This document shows positions 238 to 20,095 of a stretch of DNA of 20,873 nt, piece after piece. The stretch comes from Candidatus Baldrarchaeum yapensis (GTDB lineage Archaea > Asgardarchaeota > Baldrarchaeia > Baldrarchaeales > Baldrarchaeaceae), in NCBI GenBank assembly GCA_016840465.1, contig JAEOSH010000043.1, positions 1 through 20,873 of the forward strand, given 5' to 3'. The stretch's first letter is position 1. Each line of letters opens with the position of its first letter. Made by a program: the position numbers and the translations under genes. The notes under the pieces are model-generated. The model had not been told where the DNA came from, did not search any database, and saw only the letters and a program-made list of their open reading frames with translations.

Positions 238-675
238 TTAAAACTCTACGAGGGCGAAAAGAGATTCTGAGGGTCTAACAACCCCATTCCTCATTTTTAT
301 GAAACCAAGCCTTTCTAAGTATTTGAGATCCTCGAGCACGGTTTTCACTTCCACGCCACGCTCCTTAGCGACTTCCTCTATTTTTGCTTCTCCCTTTCCT
401 GCACATAATTTTATGACCGCAAATAGCGTTGCCTTCACTCTATCCGGTAGGAACCCCTCACCCTCGGTAAAAGCCAGATGCCACGTTTTTGAAAGAGGAT
501 TGTACATGAGTGAGAACCCCAGGAGAGATAACATGTATGAAACCCTCTCTAACGCCTTAATCGCACAAACTTCTCCAAAATCGTCCTCACGTAGGCCTAA
601 GAGCCTTATTATCTCCCGTAGGGATATTCCTTTGCCTCCCAAAAGCCTGCTCAACAATGCCGTGACCTCATTCAA
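238..675 (-). CDS. ScpB-like kite subunit of an SMC complex (tandem winged helix)
   Basis: A 145-residue protein at the end of the SMC operon. The first half (about residues 1-70) reads as a winged helix with a helix-turn-helix (LREIIRLLGL) followed by the hairpin GFSLMYNPLSKTWHL, which resembles the wing of ScpB proteins. The second half (about 78-145) is another winged helix with LPDRVKATLFAVIKL and LEDLKYLERLGFI, matching the second ScpB domain. ScpB/kite proteins dimerise on the kleisin linker and control the SMC ATPase and DNA entrapment. It is shorter than bacterial ScpB, which is near 190 residues. Its start overlaps the end of the scpA-like gene by 8 bases, so translation is probably coupled. 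The assignment rests on fold pattern and position; a plain wHTH regulator is the alternative. Confidence 0.65.
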   Translation of the reverse strand: MNEVTALLSRLLGGKGISLREIIRLLGLREDDFGEVCAIKALERVSYMLSLLGFSLMYNPLSKTWHLAFTEGEGFLPDRVKATLFAVIKLCAGKGEAKIEEVAKERGVEVKTVLEDLKYLERLGFIKMRNGVVRPSESLFALVEF

Positions 676-1234
676 TCATGATCACCTCGTTTTTGTCTTC
701 AGATAGCGATAGTCTCCCCGAAGATATCAATCTGAGGAGTGCAACGAATGCCATCAGCGTGGACCATCGATCTCCCATTTTAACCACATTTTCTACGCTC
801 GCCCTCCCTCCTTGCTCCGTTAAAAGCGAAAGTACCAGTCTAGACGCTCTTTTCAAGATATCCTCAAACCTTACGATACTTATCTCGACGTGTGGAGCCT
901 CAGAGCCTAACTCTATATGCTCGGTGAGCTCTTCTGCTTCTAAGCACCTCCTCTTCTCCGATAGCGATTTTAATCTCTCGAATGCTCTTCTGAGATCGTC
1001 GATTCCAATAAAGGGGAACATCAATGGAACTCCGGCTATTTTGATCTCTGGTTGTTCTCCCTCAAGGTTCATTAGTATGAGGTTTGCTATTTCGCGGATC
1101 TCCCTCTCGATAAGATCCAAAATTCTTGCAATTATCCTTAATGCTTCCCTTAGATCCATATTGTCGATCTCGGCAAGCACCTTTGAAATTAGCAAATTTA
1201 CGTCGCCACCGCTGCCCATCATAAGGGTCACCAT
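668..1234 (-). CDS. scpA: ScpA-like kleisin subunit of an SMC complex
   Basis: A 188-residue protein encoded directly after SMC. The N-terminus (SGGDVNLLISKVLAEID) resembles the start of ScpA kleisins, which binds the coiled-coil neck of one SMC head. The C-terminal 50 residues (WSTLMAFVALLRLISSGRLS followed by a beta hairpin) match the ScpA winged helix that binds the cap of the other head; the phrase F-ALL-L---G---L is typical. The middle (about 65-130) is acidic and less conserved, as expected of the linker that binds kite proteins. It overlaps smc by 7 bases and scpB by 8. Two further Met codons (residues 5 and 6) are alternative starts. ScpA bridges the SMC heads to close the ring; that role is taken from the family. 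Confidence 0.75.
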   Translation of the reverse strand: MVTLMMGSGGDVNLLISKVLAEIDNMDLREALRIIARILDLIEREIREIANLILMNLEGEQPEIKIAGVPLMFPFIGIDDLRRAFERLKSLSEKRRCLEAEELTEHIELGSEAPHVEISIVRFEDILKRASRLVLSLLTEQGGRASVENVVKMGDRWSTLMAFVALLRLISSGRLSLSEDKNEVIMIE

Positions 1235-4200
1235 TCCAGCTCTATTATCCTGCTAACGCCGCGGTCTTTCTGCAACACCACTCCGTAAATCTTATCGGCG
1301 AACAATCCGATGTCGGCGTGCTTATCCGGCACAAATACCAGCACCTGCCTTCCCTTTGAATTCTTACTGAGAATTTTCGCCGCAACGGTGCTATGCCTGA
1401 TGTCTAAGAAGATGACCGGCTCGTCGTAGGCAAATATGCGGCTGTGCGATCTCCTCTGAAGTGCACATATGAACGCTATTGCTATGATTGTCTGTTGACC
1501 CTTACTGAAGGTCTTGATGGCACGTTCAACGCCATCGCCTGTTTTTGCCCTCATCACCAAGCCCAGTTCCTCGAAGCTACCATCCAATGTGGCGCTGCAC
1601 CGTATGTCGATGTTGTTCTCCTCAAGCACGCTATTAACTTCCCTGATAATTGAATCCACCTCCTTCCTCAACTCCTCCAAGTACTTATCTTTCAACTTCT
1701 CCATGAGTTGGCTGACGGCACTTATTTTCCTCTCTACCTCGTTTATTCGCCTAGAAATTTCCTTTCGACTCTCCTGTAGCTGCTTTACCCTGTCCAGCAC
1801 ACTCTCATCGACTTCTCCCAGTTCTTCCAGTTCCTGCAATACCACCTCCTTGCGCGCCCTTATTTCTGCGATAGAGCGCACCTTCGAAGGGCGTTCGACT
1901 CCCATAATTTTAACCGAACTGTAGAGATTACCGAGTTCCTCCTCGATACGCCTAATCTCTTCCTCCAACGTCTCCATCTTCCTACTCACGTCCTGATATC
2001 TCTCATCGAATCTGCCCAACTCCTCACGAAGTTTCTCCTTGCGCTCTTTCAGTTTCGATATCTCCCTATCCACGCCCTCGATACTCGATTTGATTTCTTT
2101 TTTCTTCCCCTCCAGCAGTTCGACATTCTTCAGGCTTTTTCTCAAGTCGGCATCTGCCCTTTCCAACTCTTCCTCCAATTCGACCTTCACTGATGCCTTC
2201 TCGTTAATTCTGGTATCAATGCCTACGAGCATTTTCTCCAACTCTGTTATCAGATTTTTGCCCCTCTCAACCATCCTGTCCACTTTTTTCAACTCTCTAT
2301 CGTTCCTCTTCAACCCTTTCTCTATAGCGTCCAGCATGCCAATGAGTTTATCGTAATCTGCCGGTTTCCGCCCCTCTATTTCCTTTAACCCTGCGAGCGC
2401 CTCGTCAACTCTCCTCTTATACTCTTCTAACTCTTTCTTCAACCGCGATACTCTCTCCTTAGCATTTTCTATCTCCTCACGCAGACGAAGCTTGCGCTCG
2501 TGGAGTTCTCTCCATTTCGGGATCAGGTTGAGCAACTCTCTTATTCTTTCCAACTCTCTCCCATATCGCTCTACGTCATCCGATAATTGCTTACGCTTCT
2601 CCTCCAAGGTCTTCCGCCTATCTTCCAACTCTTCGAGCATCGCTTGGAGCCTTTTAACGCTGAGGAGACCGCGAGGTTCCCGCCTTGCCACCATTTTAAT
2701 GACGTAATTACGCCCCTCCACAACTTCGCCGTCCAGCGTGACGAATCTATAGTTGTACTTTCGGGAGAGTCTTATTGCACTATCTAGGTCTCTCACAACC
2801 ACAACTCTGCCGCAGATATCCCTTATCACGGGTCTCAGTTCCTCGGGAAACGTTATCAGGTCTTCGAGCCATCCCACGACTCCCTCCTCCCTTAGCTCCT
2901 CCTTCTCCTCAACCCGCTCGACCTTGGGCATGTAGATCGATACTCCGCGTGCGCGGTACTTCCTTCTTCTGAGGTCGTTTAAGATGTCGTTTTGTATCTC
3001 TTTTAATATCTTGAGGTCCATCTCGTCAAATACCACGAACGATAAGAGATCCCCGCCAAATATTATTTCGACGACCTCCGCGTACTCGTCCGGGACCTCC
3101 ATGTGCTTCATCAGCGGCCCCATAGCGTTAATGCCCCTTCTCTCAACTTCCTTTTCCAGCCTTGTGACCTCCTCCGGTATGCGTTTATCTCTGCTCAGAA
3201 GCTTCGCCCTCAACTCCCTAATCTCCCCGTCAAGGTTCGCCAGTTCCTTGGTGATCCTCCCCAGTTCTCCGATCAGTTCGCCCCTCTTCCTTTCGAGATC
3301 CTCCATTCTCCTCCTCAATTCTTCCTCGTTGTAATGCTCAATCTCCTCTCCAATTTCCTGAATCTCCTTGTTAACCTTCGCAAGTTCCTCATGTAGATCC
3401 CTGAGCCTGTCCATTTCGGCATCAACTTCTTTTTTCTTCTCCTCGAACGCCCTTCTCTCCGAATTATACAGTTCTCTTGCCTTAGACCATTCTCCTTCCC
3501 ACTCACGATAGTCCTTGAGTTTGTTCTCGACCTCCCTCTTCCTCTCATGTAGTTTCTCGATCTTCTGCTCGATCCTTGCTCTTCTATGTTTCAGTTCTGT
3601 GACCCTTTTCTCAACATTTCTGATGCATCCCTCGAGGACCCTTTTCTCTCGATCAAGTCTCTCCATCTCCGCTCTCAGGCGTTCAATCTTACCTATTATC
3701 TTGTCGTACTCCTTACGCTTCTCCTCGATCTTCATATTTTCGGCAGCAATTTCACCTTCCACCTTTCTCAGCACTTCCTCGAGCGACTTCTTCTTTTTCT
3801 CCAATTCCTCGATCCGTTTTCTGGTTTCAGAGATCATTGCGTTGATCCTCTCGATCTCATGGGCTAGATCTCCGCATTTCCCCTTCAATTCTTCCATTTT
3901 TCTTCTGCGTTCTGCAAGTTCTCGCTCCCTTTCAGATATCTCCGCCCATAGTTCCTCCGCTTCCAGTTTTTTAAGTTCCTCCTCCAGCTTTCTCTTTCTC
4001 TCCAATTTTTTGATCTGCGGACGTAGGTTCATCTCCTCCGAGTTGAGGGCCCTTAATTCCTCCTCCAGCAGTTTCTTTCTCTCCGACAGTTCCCTAATTT
4101 TATCAAGTTTATCTAGGATTTCCCTCCGATGCCCCGCAAGTCCTGTGATTTCCTCCACTGCCTCCCTCAGAGCAATGGGGTCGAGATCCTTGATCGCATC

Positions 4201-4605
4201 TATCTTCCCTTGAGGGCAGAATACGAACGGGTTGCCGGGGTCGGTCTCCAGTTCCCTGACTATCCTTCTGACGCTCTCGGCAGTTGTGAGTTTGCCGTTG
4301 ACGAAGTACTGTGGGGGCCTTCCCCTTACGACCCTTCTCCTAATGGTAATTGATTCCTGTCCATTGCTGAGCACCACCTCGACCCATGCCTCATTACAGC
4401 CGTGCCTGATGAAGTCCGACCAGCGCGGATACCTCTCATCCTTTTGGTTCGATCCCAAGACGAACCTTAGCGCCTGGAAGAGCGCGGTCTTCCCGGATCC
4501 GTTTTCCCCAACGAAAACTAAGAGTCCATCTTCGAGGTTTATCTCCTCATGTGCGTACGAGAGAAAATTATGGAGCGTTAACTTTACGATCCGCACCCCC
4601 TCCAC
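1228..4605 (-). CDS. smc: SMC-family chromosome/DNA-organising ATPase
   Basis: A complete 1125-residue SMC protein. The N-terminal head has Walker A GENGSGKT (33-40) and the Q-loop FCPQGK (Gln132). Two long charged heptad-rich coiled coils (about 155-480 and 665-1000) flank a hinge domain (about 485-660) that contains VTLDGEVVEGRNY. The C-terminal head has an ABC signature FSKGQQ (1033-1038), Walker B IFAYDEP (Asp1061, Glu1062), D-loop Asp1068 and the SMC-type ending YGVVLQKDRGVSRII. The signature is divergent: canonical SMC has LSGGQ/E, here Lys replaces the first Gly. The protein should dimerise at the hinge, trap DNA and extrude or bridge loops with the ScpA/ScpB partners encoded just downstream. 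The start overlaps the upstream gene by 38 bases; a GTG at codon 4 is an alternative. A relation to crenarchaeal coalescin (ClsN) is possible and untested. Confidence 0.92.
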   Translation of the reverse strand: MEGVRIVKLTLHNFLSYAHEEINLEDGLLVFVGENGSGKTALFQALRFVLGSNQKDERYPRWSDFIRHGCNEAWVEVVLSNGQESITIRRRVVRGRPPQYFVNGKLTTAESVRRIVRELETDPGNPFVFCPQGKIDAIKDLDPIALREAVEEITGLAGHRREILDKLDKIRELSERKKLLEEELRALNSEEMNLRPQIKKLERKRKLEEELKKLEAEELWAEISERERELAERRRKMEELKGKCGDLAHEIERINAMISETRKRIEELEKKKKSLEEVLRKVEGEIAAENMKIEEKRKEYDKIIGKIERLRAEMERLDREKRVLEGCIRNVEKRVTELKHRRARIEQKIEKLHERKREVENKLKDYREWEGEWSKARELYNSERRAFEEKKKEVDAEMDRLRDLHEELAKVNKEIQEIGEEIEHYNEEELRRRMEDLERKRGELIGELGRITKELANLDGEIRELRAKLLSRDKRIPEEVTRLEKEVERRGINAMGPLMKHMEVPDEYAEVVEIIFGGDLLSFVVFDEMDLKILKEIQNDILNDLRRRKYRARGVSIYMPKVERVEEKEELREEGVVGWLEDLITFPEELRPVIRDICGRVVVVRDLDSAIRLSRKYNYRFVTLDGEVVEGRNYVIKMVARREPRGLLSVKRLQAMLEELEDRRKTLEEKRKQLSDDVERYGRELERIRELLNLIPKWRELHERKLRLREEIENAKERVSRLKKELEEYKRRVDEALAGLKEIEGRKPADYDKLIGMLDAIEKGLKRNDRELKKVDRMVERGKNLITELEKMLVGIDTRINEKASVKVELEEELERADADLRKSLKNVELLEGKKKEIKSSIEGVDREISKLKERKEKLREELGRFDERYQDVSRKMETLEEEIRRIEEELGNLYSSVKIMGVERPSKVRSIAEIRARKEVVLQELEELGEVDESVLDRVKQLQESRKEISRRINEVERKISAVSQLMEKLKDKYLEELRKEVDSIIREVNSVLEENNIDIRCSATLDGSFEELGLVMRAKTGDGVERAIKTFSKGQQTIIAIAFICALQRRSHSRIFAYDEPVIFLDIRHSTVAAKILSKNSKGRQVLVFVPDKHADIGLFADKIYGVVLQKDRGVSRIIELEW

Positions 4606-5515
4606 CCCCTACCATGCTCCTTATCCTCTCAACAGCCTTCTTCGCTCTCATCAACCTGATGATCCTCCTCTCACGATCATCTAGCAGTATAAACGAGCAC
4701 TTAGCGAGAAGGATTTCCAGTTTCCTATCGAGGGGTTGCCCGATGTTGATCTTACGTATTAGCTTCTCGAACTCCTGCCCGTACTCGCTGATTGCCATCA
4801 TGTACATTTGATCCAGCATGTCGTCGGGAACCACGCTCTCCACAACCTTAGGCGCTGGCGGAAAGATTATCCTCTCGAGACAAAAGATAAAGTCCTCCGT
4901 CTTAACAACGTCCCTGTTGTTGCCGAACGCATAAGAAACCGCCATCTTGACGAGATTTATCAGGTCCGTCGCATAGAGTCCCTCCGTCATCTCTATTATC
5001 TTTCTCAGGTCGATATCGTACTTTACACCGTCGAGTAATACCCTCAGCGCCTCCCCCCTCTCACTTGGCCCCGGTTCATGCACTCTTAATACGAACTCGT
5101 TTATTGTTAGCGGGTTTTCCAATGGCGGGCTCAGCACCACTATTAAAAACTTCCCGTCGAAGGCCCTATTCTTAAGGAGATCCATCACGTGATCACAACT
5201 TGCCCACGTTAAAAGCACGACTTCCCTGAACTTAGAAGGTTCCATATGCTCGTTGGCCGATATTTCTGTTATATCTATGTTCATTTCGTTCAATACTGAT
5301 TTTATCGCTAAATCTATCATCGATCTGGGATCCGCATAAAGGATGACCCTAGATACCGGTTCCACTCTCAGGTTTTCCGTGAAAAACGTGCGGTTCCTCC
5401 ATGCAGTTATCAGAGCCTTCAATGCCTCTACTGTGTCCCTGCAACAGATGTTTGCGACGGCCTTGACCTTCTCCTCCCACGTGGCAACCCTTTTCTCTTT
5501 CTCACTCTCCGCCAT
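4568..5515 (-). CDS. AAA-fold protein with degenerate Walker A (pseudo-ATPase), SMC-operon component
   Basis: A 315-residue protein. Residues about 54-216 follow the layout of a classical AAA domain of the Cdc48/FtsH kind: VILYADPRSMIDLAIKSV sits where the strand-P-loop-helix (normally GPPGTGKT) should be, FLIVVLSPP resembles sensor 1, and PSERGEALRVLL...TEGLYATDLINLVKMA is a good small-lid region. The P-loop glycines and the catalytic Lys-Thr pair are missing, and no Walker B DE is seen, so it should not hydrolyse ATP by itself. The last 95 residues are helical and end in a glycine-rich tail. It lies between the VWA-peptidase gene (14-base overlap) and smc (38-base overlap). I infer an adaptor that connects the MoxR/VWA module to the SMC complex. 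No gene name is recognised. Confidence 0.7.
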   Translation of the reverse strand: MAESEKEKRVATWEEKVKAVANICCRDTVEALKALITAWRNRTFFTENLRVEPVSRVILYADPRSMIDLAIKSVLNEMNIDITEISANEHMEPSKFREVVLLTWASCDHVMDLLKNRAFDGKFLIVVLSPPLENPLTINEFVLRVHEPGPSERGEALRVLLDGVKYDIDLRKIIEMTEGLYATDLINLVKMAVSYAFGNNRDVVKTEDFIFCLERIIFPPAPKVVESVVPDDMLDQMYMMAISEYGQEFEKLIRKINIGQPLDRKLEILLAKCSFILLDDRERRIIRLMRAKKAVERIRSMVGGGGGADRKVNAP

Positions 5516-7283
5516 AGTATCCTCTCACCTCCTCTATGACCATCTTGGGGAGATCGTTTGCATCCTGCACGGGATAGATTTTTCCTCCCATTTGGAAGAA
5601 CGTTTTGAACTTTTTGCTCTGCAGATCCTCCTCCCTGCCGCCTATCAAGAACAGTACTATCTTGTGCCCCATTGACGCGATCTCCATTAGGCCCCTTAAT
5701 GCCTGCTTCCAGTTGTAGATCTCCGCATCGCTTATTATCAGAACCAACACCTGATCCCTCGCCTTTTGCACCAGCTCAATCAACTCCTCTATCGGAAGTT
5801 CCGTTCCTCCGCCCTGGTACGTCAGTAAGCAGTCCTCCACTTTCTTCCTGTCTCTGGTCCACTCACAAGTTATGGGCTCGTCCGAGAAGTTCAGCACCGC
5901 CATCCTGCAGTTTTTCCTCATTGCAAAATCCAAGGCAGCGAATGCGGACACTAGTGCCGCATCATACGGTCCCGATGGTCCGGCCGGGTTCCATAATTCC
6001 CAGAACATGCTACCTGAGCTATCTATCACTATAAGGAGGTCGGGAGGGGCACTTTTCTCACCATGCCTTTCGCTTTTCCTTTTTACCCATTTTCTGGTGG
6101 TAATGTTCGGAATGAGAACCGGGAATGTTTGAAGAGATTGCACGATGTCCAACTCCTCTATTGGGTCGCCGATACGCCACACCGTGGTGTATGCGGGCAA
6201 TGCGCTTCCCTCTCTTTTAACCCGCATTTTTATTTCGATCTTTGAGGCCGCTCTTGCGCGATACCAGAACCTTAAGAGGTCATGCCCCCTCAACATCGGA
6301 GACAGACCCAGTGAGGCAGAGGCGAACTTTCCAAAGTCTTGCCCTCGCTCTACAAACCGCCTCGCTATTTTTTCAAGGTCCTCCTCTGATAGTTCGCCCT
6401 TCCCCTCAGCGGCCTCCTTATCACGTATCTCCATGGGGTTTCCACGCATCAGGATAATAACATCTTTAGGAACTTCTGCAGGTGATCTTTCTTCTTCGGC
6501 ATCGGGCTTAGTGGCCATGGGGGACCCTGTTGACGACCCTCCGCAACCTGTGAGCATGGGTGCCGGCACTCCTAAACAGATGCCCTCACGGACTTCCTCC
6601 ATCAGCACGTCTCTTAGTATCTGTGCGACCCTGCGAGTCCTCTCGGGCCACGAGTTCTCGTCATCTATTCCATCCCTGACGGCATTTGCAAGTTCTCGCG
6701 CTATTCTGTCCTCCCTTTTTCCAATGTCTAGGCGAATCGGAAATCTAACACCCCACAGGTATTCATAGGTTCGGACGAGTATTTTGAATAGGGCACTCGG
6801 AGATCCGGTTACTCTAACCGCCTCTCTTATTATCACCTCGAGTGACCACAGCGTGTCATCCCGGAACATCTTAAACAGTTTTGTTTCGACCACGAGATCG
6901 GCAAACACGTTTACTGCGAAAACCGCGCGCATTGGGTCGAGTACAGATGCCGCCTCGGCGACCATGAACGAGGAATTAATTCTATCATATGGACAGTAGA
7001 TGTAATGTCCGATTTCATGCCTTGCCATACATCTGAAAAACCTGAGGAGCTCCGTTTCTCCAAGCTGGGGATGTCGAGCAACGTTCATATGAACCCGCCA
7101 ATCCTCCTCGCTTATGTAGAAGCCCGATGTTTTCATCTCGTCATATTCTATTTCCGGCTCGGGGATCGGTGGGTTGAGGAAGTCCGCGAGCGCGAGGTTA
7201 TACCCCTCCCTTGCGATATGCATAACTCTCTCCGGCGGAATCCCCCTCCCTCTGCGGAAGATTTTACCTAGCGCTTTCTCCAT
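5502..7283 (-). CDS. HExxH metallopeptidase-VWA fusion protein (DUF2201-like)
   Basis: A 593-residue protein with two recognisable parts. Around residues 80-135 it has a zincin motif HEIGH (His89, Glu90, His93), followed by NVFADLVVE (125-133), the pattern expected for the third-ligand helix of the DUF2201-type putative metallopeptidase domain. Residues 414-575 form a von Willebrand A domain with a full MIDAS: DSSGS (421-425), Thr494 in GGGTELP and Asp519 in ISDAE. A low-complexity linker with CGGSSTGS lies near 247-254. VWA proteins of this type work with MoxR AAA+ ATPases, and the MoxR gene ends only 4 bases upstream. The start ATG is preceded by GGTGATC, a good Shine-Dalgarno site. Its substrate is unknown; operon position points to the SMC complex. 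Confidence 0.85.
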   Translation of the reverse strand: MEKALGKIFRRGRGIPPERVMHIAREGYNLALADFLNPPIPEPEIEYDEMKTSGFYISEEDWRVHMNVARHPQLGETELLRFFRCMARHEIGHYIYCPYDRINSSFMVAEAASVLDPMRAVFAVNVFADLVVETKLFKMFRDDTLWSLEVIIREAVRVTGSPSALFKILVRTYEYLWGVRFPIRLDIGKREDRIARELANAVRDGIDDENSWPERTRRVAQILRDVLMEEVREGICLGVPAPMLTGCGGSSTGSPMATKPDAEEERSPAEVPKDVIILMRGNPMEIRDKEAAEGKGELSEEDLEKIARRFVERGQDFGKFASASLGLSPMLRGHDLLRFWYRARAASKIEIKMRVKREGSALPAYTTVWRIGDPIEELDIVQSLQTFPVLIPNITTRKWVKRKSERHGEKSAPPDLLIVIDSSGSMFWELWNPAGPSGPYDAALVSAFAALDFAMRKNCRMAVLNFSDEPITCEWTRDRKKVEDCLLTYQGGGTELPIEELIELVQKARDQVLVLIISDAEIYNWKQALRGLMEIASMGHKIVLFLIGGREEDLQSKKFKTFFQMGGKIYPVQDANDLPKMVIEEVRGYYGGE

Positions 7284-7287
7284 GTGA

Positions 7288-8997
7288 TCACCCCGTCAGT
7301 ATCTTCAGGAGTTTTTCGGCATCAGGGCCCGATATCTCGAGATACACGGGGTCATCATCCTCGGTTCCCGTGACGCTGACGGAGATCGTCACCCATGGAG
7401 TCCTGACAAAGCAGTATCCGATTCTTTCGAATAATGGTTTCAGCGATTCGTAGATTCTCCTATCCGGCACTTTGGCGATTATCTTCGGTCCTAAGTTCCT
7501 CCACTCCTTGAATGTTATCCGCACCATCTCGCATGTTAGTTTGTGTATTTGCCGATCCACTCTATCCAGGAGCCTCTCCCTGTAGGGTATATCCACGTCA
7601 CTGCTGAGTTTCTCCCTTATTTTTGCGAGGTCGCTCACCTTACCTGCTGTTATCGCCTTCTCTATCTCCGTAACGAACTTCCTGTACTTAGGAGAGTTTA
7701 GTTGCTTCACCAGCGGTAAAATGTCCACCTTGACAACGATGTCGCTACGCGCCCACAGTTCGAGTTTCTGAATGTCTTCTTTCGTCCCCGTCCCGCGCTC
7801 AAACTTTTCTAGGATGTCATATGCTTCCATCCGCGCGATGAACCGGTCCTTCACCAACTTCATAATATGTCTCGTAAACTTGAGCGGGTCCCCATAAAAT
7901 GGATGCTCGCGGAGGTTCTTATCGGAATACTGCACACGATGCCATACTACAAATGGTGCAATCGCCTCCACAACCTCTATCGTCACCCTATCCAAGTTTA
8001 GAAGCCATGCCAATGCTTTCGCATATCTGCTGATGTCCTTCGCTGCTCTTACGCTCAATGGAGTCAGTATCTTGTTACAGGGACATTTATCCGTGTTGAA
8101 GTGGCAACCCTGACACAGCCCGGTGTCTGGTCTGAGAATTCGGGCGTTCTCCTTACTCACCCGTATGCATGCCTTGTATTCGGAAATTATGCTACTTATG
8201 AATCTGGCGGCCCTAGGGTCGAGTTCCATTCTCTCGACCATGCCCCATATCTGCATCAGTTCCTTCTCGGTCAGAATTGCGGGGATTTGGTAATATTCAT
8301 CGAAACCGTAAAGTTTCTCGTCTTGGGTTCCGAGGATCACCTGCATCTCGACAGAGGAGGGCATTGTCACGGGAACCGCGATGCCGAACCTGTCAAGGAA
8401 GGGCAACCCCATTTCAAAGGTTCCTACGTCCTGAGGGTTCAGCGTCGCGTACAGCACGAAGTTTTCGCAACGGTATACTTTGTCAAAGTACTTTACCTGT
8501 CCTTCCGCAAGCAAAGATAGGAGGATGTCTTGGGCGTATGGACTAAGTCTATTCACCTCGTCGACAATCTTCCAGAAGTCCGTAACGAATCTCCTCCACA
8601 CGACGTCCTCTACTCCCTCTTTTAGTAACTTTCCCGGCTTAAGAGTGGCGACCATCTTCTCCTCCGTTATGTACGGGTGCGCCCTTACGACCGCCTCCTC
8701 TATCTCCCTTAACGACTTTCCGGTAAGCATCCTCCCGAGAATCTTAACGAGGGTGGTTTTACCACCCCCATGTCCCCCATATAGCAGCATCGTCCCACGG
8801 GGGACCAGCGCGTTAATGACCGCGAGTGTGAGGATTAATGGCAATCGCTTGACGGAGTATCGGCCGCTTCGGCCGGACGGAACCTTCACTTCTAGGCGTT
8901 CGCCGTGAACAAATAGTCTATGCACTTCAACCGTGTTTATTACTTCCCAGACCTTTCGCCTGAGGCTGTCCTCGGAGGCGCGGGGCAACCCGCACAC
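7288..8997 (-). CDS. MoxR-family AAA+ ATPase with Cys cluster
   Basis: A 569-residue protein, first in the SMC operon. Its AAA+ core has Walker A GGHGGGKT (74-81), Walker B IVDEVNR (144-150; the DE-NR form is typical of MoxR), sensor 1 ATLNPQD (Asn187) and an LDRF motif that supplies the probable arginine finger (Arg203). After the lid, four cysteines at 295, 298, 305 and 307, in the pattern CxxCx6CxC, suggest a zinc or Fe-S site. The C-terminal 150 residues are unrecognised. MoxR ATPases form rings that remodel clients together with VWA partners; the next gene is such a partner. The start used is GTG. The purine-rich stretch just before it would also suit TTG at codon 4, so the exact start is uncertain. 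Confidence 0.88.
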   Translation of the reverse strand: MCGLPRASEDSLRRKVWEVINTVEVHRLFVHGERLEVKVPSGRSGRYSVKRLPLILTLAVINALVPRGTMLLYGGHGGGKTTLVKILGRMLTGKSLREIEEAVVRAHPYITEEKMVATLKPGKLLKEGVEDVVWRRFVTDFWKIVDEVNRLSPYAQDILLSLLAEGQVKYFDKVYRCENFVLYATLNPQDVGTFEMGLPFLDRFGIAVPVTMPSSVEMQVILGTQDEKLYGFDEYYQIPAILTEKELMQIWGMVERMELDPRAARFISSIISEYKACIRVSKENARILRPDTGLCQGCHFNTDKCPCNKILTPLSVRAAKDISRYAKALAWLLNLDRVTIEVVEAIAPFVVWHRVQYSDKNLREHPFYGDPLKFTRHIMKLVKDRFIARMEAYDILEKFERGTGTKEDIQKLELWARSDIVVKVDILPLVKQLNSPKYRKFVTEIEKAITAGKVSDLAKIREKLSSDVDIPYRERLLDRVDRQIHKLTCEMVRITFKEWRNLGPKIIAKVPDRRIYESLKPLFERIGYCFVRTPWVTISVSVTGTEDDDPVYLEISGPDAEKLLKILTG

Positions 8998-9043: not shown

Positions 9044-9055
9044 CTTTTAAATAAG
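9044..9055 (-). promoter_or_regulatory. Promoter (TATA box) of the MoxR-VWA-SMC-ScpAB operon
   Basis: On the minus strand the sequence ACTTATTTAAAAGG forms an AT-rich TATA-like element. Transcription would begin near 9020, leaving a leader of about 20-25 bases before the GTG of the MoxR gene. No other convincing promoter is seen within the six genes that follow, in line with one transcript. Confidence 0.5.
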
Positions 9056-12013: not shown

Positions 12014-12481
12014 ATGCGTAGGATTGAGGTTTCCGAGGGAATTTATGAGATCCTTTTGGAAATCGCCAGAATAAGGGGCAAAAGTATAGAAGAGATCATT
12101 GTTGAATCCGTTATTGAAGACCTAGATCCCAGAACAAGGATCGAGGTATACTTAAAACTCCATGAGAAGTTTCTGCGAGAGGCGGAGGATTTCTACGCCA
12201 AGGGCGATCTTGTACAGGCTGGTGAGAAGTACTGGGGCGCTGCAACGGCCCTCATCAATGCAATTGGTGAGAAAAGGGGATGGAAACATTACAGCCACAG
12301 GGACTATGCCGAAATTATAGAAAGATTATCCGAGGAGTTAAAAGAACCGCTGGGAAGGCTCTTTGCAAGCGTTGAGAGATTACACGCGAATTATTACCAT
12401 AATTTCCTGACAAAAACGAACTTCGAAGCGCATAGGGAGGATGCGCTTAAACTCATCACGAAACTCAAAGAACTCGTATGA
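12014..12481 (+). CDS. PaREP1-family HEPN-like helical protein
   Basis: A 155-residue, mostly helical protein. After a short N-terminal strand-helix part (RRIEVSEGIYEILLEIARIR), the segment YLKLHEKFLREAEDFYAKGD followed by LVQAGEKYWGAATALINAIG matches the PaREP1 family, common in crenarchaea. The pattern of helices with GD-VQAxEK-Y-A resembles HEPN domains. Near the end, ERLHANYYHNF contains Arg-x6-His, which could be the HEPN ribonuclease motif, but this is inference. No nucleotidyltransferase partner gene is present. Its 3' end faces the ARPP-1 gene, with 88 bases between the stops. Function is unknown; RNA-directed or partner-binding roles are possible. Confidence 0.75.
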   Translation: MRRIEVSEGIYEILLEIARIRGKSIEEIIVESVIEDLDPRTRIEVYLKLHEKFLREAEDFYAKGDLVQAGEKYWGAATALINAIGEKRGWKHYSHRDYAEIIERLSEELKEPLGRLFASVERLHANYYHNFLTKTNFEAHREDALKLITKLKELV

Positions 12482-13670: not shown

Positions 13671-14234
13671 TTACGCTTGTTGCTTTGCCTCCATGTGGGC
13701 ACGTTCCTTTAATATCCCTAGGAGTTCTTTCACGTATTTCAGTCGCGCCCTGACCTGCTCCGGTTTAAGTCTCGCCTCATGGAATCCCTCGACGTGTAGG
13801 AAGTATGCATGGTCCCAGTCGTCGTATATTCTCTCATTAATTTTTTCACTTAGCTTCCTCGCGGCGGCATCGAGTAAAGACAATGTCCATCTTCCTCGCT
13901 CTTTAGCTTTATTTGCTTCTTCGAGTTTCTCGGCTACTGCGAGGGCCTTAATGGCTTCTTCAGCCACCTTATACAGCTTTTCACATGCCTGAACGGTGTC
14001 TTTATCGACGAGTTTCTCGCCCTCTTCGAGGTACTTTTCGGCGAGTTCGGCTCTGGCTCTGACCTCATCCGTGGGATCCATGTTGAGTTCATGTATGAGT
14101 ACATCGATTAGTTTGGCTTCTACGTCGACGCCTAGGTCTCTGAGACGTCTAGCAACGGTTTCGGGTAGCCTGATAACGACTTTATAGATCATATTCATCA
14201 CGAATGTTTTTTCGTCCGACACGTTACTTACCAT
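13671..14234 (-). CDS. PaREP1-family protein
   Basis: Up to 187 residues. The N-terminal strand-helix part (YKVVIRLPETVARRLRDLGV) resembles a ribbon-helix-helix or CopG-like start. It leads into AELAEKYLEEGEKLVDKDTV and QACEKLYKVAEEAIKALA, the defining repeat of PaREP1 proteins, then DWDHAYFLHVEGFHEARL, also characteristic of the family in Thermoproteales and relatives. Function is unknown. Three Met codons compete as the start (14234, 14198 and 14192); the shorter two would begin at MNMIYKVV or MIYKVV, right at the conserved part, and may be correct. It is transcribed in the same direction as the ARPP-1 gene, which begins 102 bases downstream with its own promoter. Confidence 0.8.
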   Translation of the reverse strand: MVSNVSDEKTFVMNMIYKVVIRLPETVARRLRDLGVDVEAKLIDVLIHELNMDPTDEVRARAELAEKYLEEGEKLVDKDTVQACEKLYKVAEEAIKALAVAEKLEEANKAKERGRWTLSLLDAAARKLSEKINERIYDDWDHAYFLHVEGFHEARLKPEQVRARLKYVKELLGILKERAHMEAKQQA

Positions 14235-18311: not shown

Positions 18312-18557
18312 TCAGTTATGCACACACTTCTTAATTGAATATACTAGTTCAAGAAACCTGATCAAATGGCCGAATGCCGATCTTAATGTTTCCTCCCTAG
18401 ATTCCTCAATTAATCTTATAACATCCTTAATGCTGTTCAAATTGCGAAGTTTTAGGAACTCTTTTGCATCACGATAGCCTTTGAGAATTTCTTTGTCAAA
18501 CTTCTCTTCTAAAAGTAATAAACGGGCTATATAGTCCTCTATAAAATGGCTTTCAAA
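18312..18557 (-). pseudogene. Frameshifted C-terminal part of the TOPRIM gene
   Basis: Directly after the break in the TOPRIM gene, the next frame stays open for about 80 codons and reads FESHFIEDYIARLLLLEEKF, then FLKLRNLNSIKDVIRLIEES, ending at TGA 18312. The phrase (P)F-SH-IEDYI fits the usual C-terminal continuation of archaeal TOPRIM proteins of the DUF3226 kind, and there is no start codon of its own. Adding one base in the run CCCTTTGAA (about 18554-18560) would join it to the upstream part as one protein of about 225 residues. Confidence 0.65.
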
Positions 18558-18988
18558 GGGAGATCCCTAATTCCGGAGACAAGTATGAGTATTGGAAATT
18601 TTCCGTTTTTAATATCAAATAAATTTTCATCGACCGCATTCAGTTCTTTAACTGGAACTCCACTCGATTTTAACGAGTTCATGACGGATCGTGCTCTCTG
18701 CTCGTAATCATACTCATCCGCATCAATTATAACTCCAATAACTTTGATTTTCTTGGAAATTTGCGATAAAGTCGCAATATAGCTTGTAATTTCACGTATT
18801 GCTGGTACGCCTTCACAATCCGTCACTCCCATGTTAATATCCGGCAATTCTAATTTCTTAATGATGGCTTTTAGCACCTCCGCATCGGTCCTCCCTTCAC
18901 AAAGCACTATGACCTCTAACTCTTTAACAATTTTCCTAGCAAGTGCGTAAAACGCATTTTCATGAGGCTTTAACTGAACTATCGGCAC
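18539..18988 (-). CDS. TOPRIM-domain nuclease-like protein (C-terminally cut by a frameshift)
   Basis: The 149-residue open part holds a TOPRIM fold: VIVLCEGRTDAEVL (catalytic Glu31, then the G-TD of the family), GVTDCEGVPAI and VIGVIIDADEYDY (Asp89, Asp91). These residues bind Mg in topoisomerase/primase and OLD-type nucleases. It follows the ATPase gene after 12 bases, with GGAGG seven bases ahead of its GTG start, so both are made from one message. The pairing of an ABC/AAA ATPase with a separate TOPRIM protein recalls PARIS (AriA-AriB) and split OLD/Gabija-like defence modules. The frame ends early (LPLKAIL stop) because one base seems missing; the rest is in the next frame down to 18312. 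The TOPRIM core itself remains complete. Confidence 0.8.
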   Translation of the reverse strand: MPIVQLKPHENAFYALARKIVKELEVIVLCEGRTDAEVLKAIIKKLELPDINMGVTDCEGVPAIREITSYIATLSQISKKIKVIGVIIDADEYDYEQRARSVMNSLKSSGVPVKELNAVDENLFDIKNGKFPILILVSGIRDLPLKAIL

Positions 18989-19000
18989 ATCTATGCCTCC

Positions 19001-20095
19001 TCATATAATGTCCAGAAATCTGGGGTCTATTCCCATTCTATCAAGTACGCTGACGTTTTCCGGCGTTAGTCGCCGCACATTCACATTGCCGGCCTTATCT
19101 CTCTCCATGAAGAAGATAGCGACATCTACATTCTTTTCTCTGGCAATTGCGTTCAAGAGTTTTATGAGTTCGAGGCTATGAGTCGTTATGAACGCCTGGA
19201 CCCTGTTCTCCATCACCATCTCAAGAAAAATTTCGAGAGTCTTAGCAAGCCCGCTGGGATGCTGGTGATTCTCGGGTTCCTCGATGAGAACTGCCGTATT
19301 CTTGGATAACGCGGCTACCATTATTATCATCATGGAGACCTTTGCACCATCGCCCAAATCGTCAACTCTGACGATTGCATCCGGCAACTTTACGACCAAC
19401 TGGAAGATTTCACCGTACGGCACATAGGTTATGTCTTCGGCCTCCACGTCGTATCCGCTCTTCAACATCCGAATTATTATCTTATCAAGCCTATATTTCA
19501 GCAGATCCCTCCACAAAATCTTCTCAACATGCTCTATTTCACGCATCAGATTTGCATCTATGAACTCCATATCGCTTAGGAATCTTCTTACCTTCTCACC
19601 TCGTCCCCCGACAAACTCGTCCAAAACGCGCATTACGAGGTCCGTGGAAGTCTTCATCATGGACTTGTTTTTCGAATTTACGGCGCCATAATGTATTAGG
19701 CACATGTGATCGAAATCTCTATATGGCACCTCCAAGATCGGATGCTCATGCCACTCGAAAAGTTTCGTCTTTAACTTAATACCATCACAGAACACAAATT
19801 CCACTTCTATCGGATCCTCACACTTATACATGTGCCACAAAACCTCACGGTCCCTATCCCACGTTAACCCTCTGAACCCCCTCCGATTCAGGAGGTAGGA
19901 GATCTTATCCGATATACCGTCTTTCTTATGAAGTCTCTCCTCGAACTTAAAAGCGGCAGACGCTAAATATATGGCTTCGAGAAGCGAAGACTTCCCACTA
20001 TTGTTCCTACCTATAAACACGTTCACCCTGCTCAAACCTTCAATCTTGCAACTCTTTATTGCTCGATAATTCTTGATCTCGAGAGATGTTATCAT
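19001..20095 (-). CDS. OLD-like ABC/AAA ATPase (AAA_15/AAA_21 type)
   Basis: A complete 364-residue ATPase. It starts ITSLEIKNYRAIKSCKIEGL, the usual first strands, then Walker A GRNNSGKSS (29-37). DDLGDGAKVSMMIIM stands in the place of the ABC signature, Walker B is VLIEEPENHQHP (Glu272, Glu273), and AFITTHSLELI (His306) supplies the switch histidine. The segment between about 100 and 220 is the helical insertion typical of this class. There is no TOPRIM domain in this protein; the next gene provides one. Family members of this layout act in anti-phage or anti-mobile-element defence. The ATG is preceded by GAGGAGA four bases upstream; TATA-like elements lie at 20126-20136 and 20155-20164. 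Confidence 0.88.
   Translation of the reverse strand: MITSLEIKNYRAIKSCKIEGLSRVNVFIGRNNSGKSSLLEAIYLASAAFKFEERLHKKDGISDKISYLLNRRGFRGLTWDRDREVLWHMYKCEDPIEVEFVFCDGIKLKTKLFEWHEHPILEVPYRDFDHMCLIHYGAVNSKNKSMMKTSTDLVMRVLDEFVGGRGEKVRRFLSDMEFIDANLMREIEHVEKILWRDLLKYRLDKIIIRMLKSGYDVEAEDITYVPYGEIFQLVVKLPDAIVRVDDLGDGAKVSMMIIMVAALSKNTAVLIEEPENHQHPSGLAKTLEIFLEMVMENRVQAFITTHSLELIKLLNAIAREKNVDVAIFFMERDKAGNVNVRRLTPENVSVLDRMGIDPRFLDII

Follow-up and report, generated by a model that had tools for sequence, protein, structure and literature searches.

A putatively Smc5/6-related SMC cassette of Asgard archaea and its linkage to a MoxR-VWA pair with a putative metallopeptidase motif

The window analysed here, a contig of 20,873 nucleotides from Candidatus Baldrarchaeum yapensis (assembly GCA_016840465.1, contig JAEOSH010000043.1; genome of 2.27 Mb, 96% complete), carries on its minus strand six consecutive genes, in which a MoxR-type AAA+ ATPase, a von Willebrand factor A (VWA) protein with an N-terminal HExxH domain and a pseudo-AAA subunit of Cdc48/p97 ancestry are followed by a divergent SMC (SMC-b), a kleisin and a kite (Table 1). 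With moderate confidence, we read this locus as encoding an archaeal Smc5/6-related SMC complex of the chromosome, built from SMC-b, kleisin, kite and the Cdc48-derived AAA subunit, together with a MoxR-VWA remodelling pair that would act on SMC complexes. The cassette of four genes, AAA-SMC-kleisin-kite, is the actual core, with MoxR-VWA as a separable partner module. The open reading frames (ORFs) lie as the initial annotation of this DNA had described them, with one gap of 4 bases and overlaps of 7 to 38 bases, and the TATA-like box TTATTTAAAAG upstream of MoxR, read from the sequence, probably represents the single promoter that it had reported for the six-gene operon.

The link between the two modules recurs in other Asgard classes. 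It had been proposed that a functional connection would fall if these genes adjoined smc only in this contig, or if their order were broken in relatives. The first is not the case, since a locus from a different family of the phylum (L025 in genome G007, probably Jordarchaeia judging by its kin) repeats the full six-gene order. Named homologues come from Thorarchaeota, Lokiarchaeota and Jordarchaeum, all of them Asgard, and a genome search assigns such genomes to the phylum of the window. MoxR-VWA is collinear with the cassette in the window lineage and in Jordarchaeum; in Thorarchaeia the modules are divergent, with VWA-MoxR in one direction and AAA-SMC-kleisin-kite in the opposite one; and in some Lokiarchaeia, including Harpocratesius, MoxR-VWA is convergent with the canonical smc-kite genes. 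The order is indeed broken in relatives, but adjacency to an SMC gene is kept, and its return beside the other SMC paralogue speaks for function and against a frozen gene order.

The AAA subunit was seen in 34 genomes (strong AAA profile matches, E < 1e-56; tables counted by hand); in 29 of them AAA and VWA genes share a contig and lie within ~5 kb of each other, and in the other five they are on different contigs. Thirteen Lokiarchaeia-type genomes encode both the VWA protein and a canonical hinge SMC, the two genes being adjacent in eight, ~7 kb apart in one, 58 kb apart in one (a partial hinge ORF) and on different contigs in three. The four-gene cassette itself was detected in the window lineage, Jordarchaeum, Thorarchaeia, Lokiarchaeia including Harpocratesius, and the family here labelled f12; in Lokiarchaeia it lies far from MoxR-VWA. 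Named Lokiarchaeia records with relatives are those of Harpocratesius, in which the four-gene core was confirmed, and a Prometheoarchaeum sp. Across 227 Asgard genomes, lists compiled by hand gave as raw counts 95 genomes with both VWA and SMC-b, 9 with VWA only, 13 with SMC-b only and 110 with neither, and the trees of both proteins mostly follow taxonomy. The VWA family was almost absent from 76 non-Asgard archaeal genomes, the best match being one divergent protein (1.5e-47) without HExxH. At locus L210 of the non-Asgard genome G388, a divergent VWA gene without HExxH has a distant MoxR upstream, with the SMC on another contig.

Family searches matched the window SMC to SMC_N (3e-29) and SMC_hinge (1e-13), and sequence and alignment revealed Walker A (GENGSGKT), Walker B (YDEP), the hinge and a variant signature (SKGQQ), the set expected of an SMC ATPase. 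The reported SMC-ScpA-ScpB operon holds as an SMC-kleisin-kite set, but it had been overlooked that its SMC is a second, apparently Smc5/6-related paralogue: a hinge search separated two hinge-SMC classes across Asgard genomes, and the window protein is by its sequence the divergent SMC-b, other than the canonical archaeal SMC. SMC-b is the sole hinge SMC of the window genome and of at least 20 genomes with completeness of at least 95% (for example G004, G013, G133, G135, G149, G151 and G156), which argues for a role in chromosome maintenance. A hinge match was absent from 66 of the 227 genomes, many of them of family f17; these may lack an SMC or have one of another class.

The profile of SMC-b scored 145 bits with SMC5, 142 with SMC6 and 206 with SMC2/3, whereas that of the canonical Asgard SMC scored 119 bits with SMC6 and up to 490-538 with SMC2/3/4, SMC5 falling outside its top 60; these scores hint at an Smc5/6 affinity of SMC-b. 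Head-domain trees grouped SMC-b with SMC5/6 at 99.7/99 and, in a second tree, 99.7/100, and the f12 SMC with SMC5/6 at 90/94, or 93/95 under posterior mean site frequencies (PMSF). For the wider SMC-b and SMC5/6 clade, support drops to 37.8/77 (PMSF C20), or 69.8/85 without f12, approximately unbiased tests leave alternative placements unrejected (p 0.37, 0.21 and 0.19), and the affinity is not decisive. Of the reference sequences in the trees, yeast SMC2, SMC5 and SMC6 matched PDB chains at full length; the set also had provisional sequences for yeast SMC3, B. subtilis SMC, human SMC5/6 and Pfu Rad50. A split of archaeal SMCs, with a second class joining eukaryotic SMC5/6, was described in PMC9389158, which credits Yoshinaga and Inagaki 2021 and nowhere contains the word kleisin. 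SMC-b resembles that class in grouping with SMC5/6 in our trees; earlier knowledge consisted of sequences and phylogeny, to which subunits and linkage are added here, and the papers retrieved yielded no cassette, kite, AAA subunit, MoxR-VWA or ubiquitin linkage.

The kleisin and kite calls were upheld by profile or fold comparison. The kleisin had no family match in a single-sequence search; a profile of 12 cassette kleisins aligned by hhalign with three canonical ScpA proteins at probability 93.8 (E 1.7e-7, 187 columns), the negative control against ScpB reaching 0.4%, and weak PDB matches fell on ScpA C-domains (4i99_C, 5xns_C), which identifies a kleisin subunit. For the kite, single-sequence searches gave generic winged-helix matches only, and its profile matched canonical ScpB at E 2e-4 (negative control 0.53). 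Its model (predicted local distance difference test score 89.5) matched the ScpB N-domain 3w6j (Z 10.2), ScpB 2z99 (Z 10.1) and Nse1-Nse3-Nse4 7dg2 (Z 10.8), and resembles both N and C domains of ScpB but also many other winged-helix proteins; profile and model together indicate a kite with tandem winged helices.

The pseudo-AAA protein of the window matched AAA_lid_3 (2e-5) without a P-loop, and its family profile matches CDC48/p97 at 1e-50, indicating a CDC48/p97-related core. The label pseudo-AAA was apt at the motif level, Walker A having been lost: the motif reads GTDF in Thorarchaeia and PGTDI or similar in Lokiarchaeia, is gone in the window and in G007, and appears non-functional in the window, Jordarchaeum, Thorarchaeia and Lokiarchaeia alike. 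An intact version (GRPGTGKT) was seen only in f12. Walker A is lost where MoxR-VWA is present and intact where it is absent, a contrast suggesting that MoxR took over the ATPase role. Beyond strong matches, the search for this subunit across all genomes was swamped by Cdc48, and for that reason the Lokiarchaeal proteins were identified by neighbourhood only.

The f12 cassette, with a short SMC of ~840 aa, has as neighbours genes for ubiquitin (PF00240, 1e-11), E2 (3e-32), ThiF/E1 (1e-60), JAB (2e-17) and RING proteins, and lies also near an E2/RWD-RING protein and an M48-type HELGH peptidase-RING protein. At loci L194-L197 (f12 and G176) the ubiquitin operon is directly beside the AAA-SMC-kleisin-kite cassette, and the AAA subunit combines an intact Walker A with an altered Walker B (IDNFD); L197 is possibly misbinned, its genome being assigned to another family and showing 9% contamination. 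No MoxR-VWA was found in f12 genomes by genome search, as if another ATPase and peptidase arrangement, made up of the intact AAA, the ubiquitin genes and the M48-type peptidase-RING protein, might replace it.

In the partner module, MoxR matched AAA_5 (3.5e-10) and AAA_lid_2 and has an intact Walker A, and its family shares a cluster of conserved cysteines (LCxGCHFN...CN), a possible binding site for zinc or Fe-S. The adjacent VWA protein matched VWA_2 (5e-4), and its model over residues 409-593 matched VWA folds including Rpn10 (Z 17.6). In an alignment of 23 diverse members, H89, E90 and H93 of HExxH are invariant, as are the metal ion-dependent adhesion site (MIDAS) motif with T494 and D519, and D129, a candidate third metal ligand; the model places a helix over residues 76-95. 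A MoxR AAA+ ATPase with an adjacent VWA protein whose MIDAS is intact, as seen here, is what defines a MoxR-VWA pair, and the invariance of HExxH bears out, at the motif level, the earlier term VWA peptidase. For the N-terminal part, the VWA profile gave no informative PDB match, and Pfam on the 23 proteins gave no family, with one SprT-like match at 0.17. HExxH is lost in the VWA proteins of families f14 and f16, in which SMC-b was not found. The VWA relatives were recovered by an alignment query; a single-sequence query of the genome contigs gave none.

The gene combination suggests a built-in opening or release of the SMC ring. The pseudo-AAA protein, having lost nucleotide binding, would offer a docking site on the core of SMC, kleisin and kite; the VWA protein would dock there or, in the manner of midasin, use its MIDAS metal to hold an acidic residue of the client; the MoxR ring would spend ATP to pull open the kleisin or the head interface, so that the SMC ring comes off the DNA; and the HExxH domain might trim or cut the extracted subunit. 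These steps, with unloading rather than loading as their direction, we infer from the MoxR-VWA and midasin precedents, the conserved motifs and the difference in Walker A between lineages. Several points weigh against this account: MoxR-VWA adjoins neither SMC in most Lokiarchaeia and may have further clients; the co-occurrence counts ignore shared ancestry; the Walker A contrast amounts to one genus and one phylogenetic contrast; and the fold search covered residues 409-593 of the VWA protein only, the putative metallopeptidase being called from the sequence of the N-terminal domain.

It is rather unlikely, yet to be taken seriously, that in the same complex MoxR-VWA serves as an assembly or loading chaperone, helping SMC or kleisin to fold or to acquire metal, with a structural metal at HExxH. 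Described MoxR-VWA pairs (such as CbbQO, NorQD and RavA-ViaA) serve to activate client enzymes or bring them to maturity, the conserved cysteine cluster of MoxR suggests metal chemistry, and HExxH is kept even at unlinked loci; however, the two SMC paralogues neighboured by MoxR-VWA share their architecture and, to our knowledge, no metal centre. We hold it improbable that two housekeeping modules are adjacent by chance under a common promoter. The modules do stand apart in most Lokiarchaeia, but collinear, divergent and other-paralogue arrangements show an adjacency retained through rearrangement, and the co-occurrence counts likewise speak against chance.

A Wadjet-like or conflict defence, in which SMC would sense foreign DNA and the VWA peptidase would be the effector, had also been proposed and is very improbable, because at least 20 near-complete genomes have no hinge SMC other than SMC-b and the trees of both VWA and SMC-b agree with taxonomy. 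Wadjet itself consists of SMC, kleisin, kite and an enzymatic module, which the locus resembles. PMC7159879 includes MoxR-vWA pairs among ternary conflict systems. On the other side, PADLOC gave only generic coiled-coil/ABC matches to the SMC and no JetA/B/D, and for the other five proteins no defence-specific match save a generic winged-helix match of the kite to CARF-type proteins; there is no effector or nuclease alongside; and in IMG/VR viral contigs neither a VWA relative nor a close SMC-b turned up, the matches being generic SMC/Rad50-like ATPases with 21-44% identity. Pfam, with general profiles only, found no third-component or effector domain of a ternary system among the six proteins.

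Compared with JetABCD, then, the locus shares SMC, kleisin and kite encoded with an enzymatic module, but has no JetD nuclease, another SMC and chromosomal, taxonomy-following inheritance. The possibility that it is a known conserved coalescin locus was also rejected: like ClsN and ASRPs, SMC-b is a non-canonical archaeal SMC-superfamily protein, but ASRPs bear a zinc hook (PMC9389158), whereas the window protein has a true SMC hinge (PF06470), contains no CxxC and scores 130 bits with the ASRP model against a cut-off of 300. With Smc-ScpAB the locus has in common the SMC-kleisin-kite gene order and detectable kleisin and kite homology, and it differs in the added AAA subunit and MoxR-VWA; the examined genomes of Jordarchaeum and Thorarchaeia also have a separate canonical smc-scpA-scpB operon, and kites have been reported missing from some archaeal Smc complexes (PMC7055376). 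Eukaryotic Smc5/6, with its Nse1/Nse3 kites and Nse4 kleisin, is similar in kite, kleisin and tree affinity, and the RING/ubiquitin link of f12 recalls the Nse1 RING; here, in contrast, each cassette has one SMC gene and so presumably yields a homodimer, and we know of no Smc5/6 counterpart of the AAA subunit or MoxR-VWA. RavA-ViaA, CbbQO and NorQD, of which midasin is a giant relative, likewise have a MoxR AAA+ beside a VWA protein that carries a MIDAS, but differ from the present pair in its N-terminal HExxH domain and SMC-linked locus. No description of this gene set or linkage was found in the literature on MoxR with SMC, Asgard kleisin/ScpAB and Asgard SMC5/6, searched without preprints and with few subscription papers; an earlier report may exist, but the combination appears to be undescribed.

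Table 1. Features of the six-gene locus, in window positions.
Feature	Position	Strand	Remarks
TATA-like box TTATTTAAAAG	9044..9054	-	Putative promoter; upstream of MoxR, read from sequence
MoxR-type AAA+ ATPase	7288..8997	-	569 aa
Walker A GGHGGGKT of MoxR	8755..8778	-	Intact; alignment
VWA protein with N-terminal HExxH domain	5502..7283	-	593 aa; 4-base gap to MoxR
HEIGH (HExxH) motif	7005..7019	-	Putative metallopeptidase
MIDAS motif DSSGS of VWA domain	6009..6023	-	
Pseudo-AAA subunit with conserved C-terminal extension	4568..5515	-	315 aa; 14-base overlap with VWA
Degenerate Walker A position ADPRSMID of pseudo-AAA	5312..5335	-	Alignment
SMC-b, divergent, putatively Smc5/6-related SMC	1228..4605	-	1125 aa; 38-base overlap with pseudo-AAA
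SMC hinge domain PF06470	2767..3123	-	Hinge match; no zinc hook
Kleisin subunit, ScpA-like	668..1234	-	188 aa; 7-base overlap with SMC
Kite subunit, ScpB-like tandem winged helix	238..675	-	145 aa; 8-base overlap with kleisin

Elsewhere in the window, positions 1-141 at the contig end form a perfect inverted repeat (arms 1-70 and 72-141, 100% complementary) that is probably an assembly fold-back artefact. An AAA_15/OLD-like ATPase beside a DUF3226/TOPRIM-like protein (18539-20095) is possibly a defence pair, and an ARPP-1-domain protein is flanked by two PaREP1-family proteins (12014-12481 and 13671-14234).

For the archaeal Smc5/6-related SMC, these results provide a full predicted subunit list and a conserved partner machine. 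Asgard archaea are the closest known relatives of eukaryotes, and the findings bear on the origin of Smc5/6, on active release factors for archaeal SMC rings and on whether the link between Smc5/6 and ubiquitin is older than eukaryotes. It is possible, if doubtful, that Asgard archaea carry a prokaryotic counterpart of Smc5/6, with kleisin, kite and Cdc48-derived AAA, together with a dedicated release machinery; in most lineages this would be MoxR-VWA including a separase-like metalloprotease, and in another a ubiquitin/RING/peptidase set. If this were true, the connection of Smc5/6 with ubiquitin ligation would predate eukaryotes.

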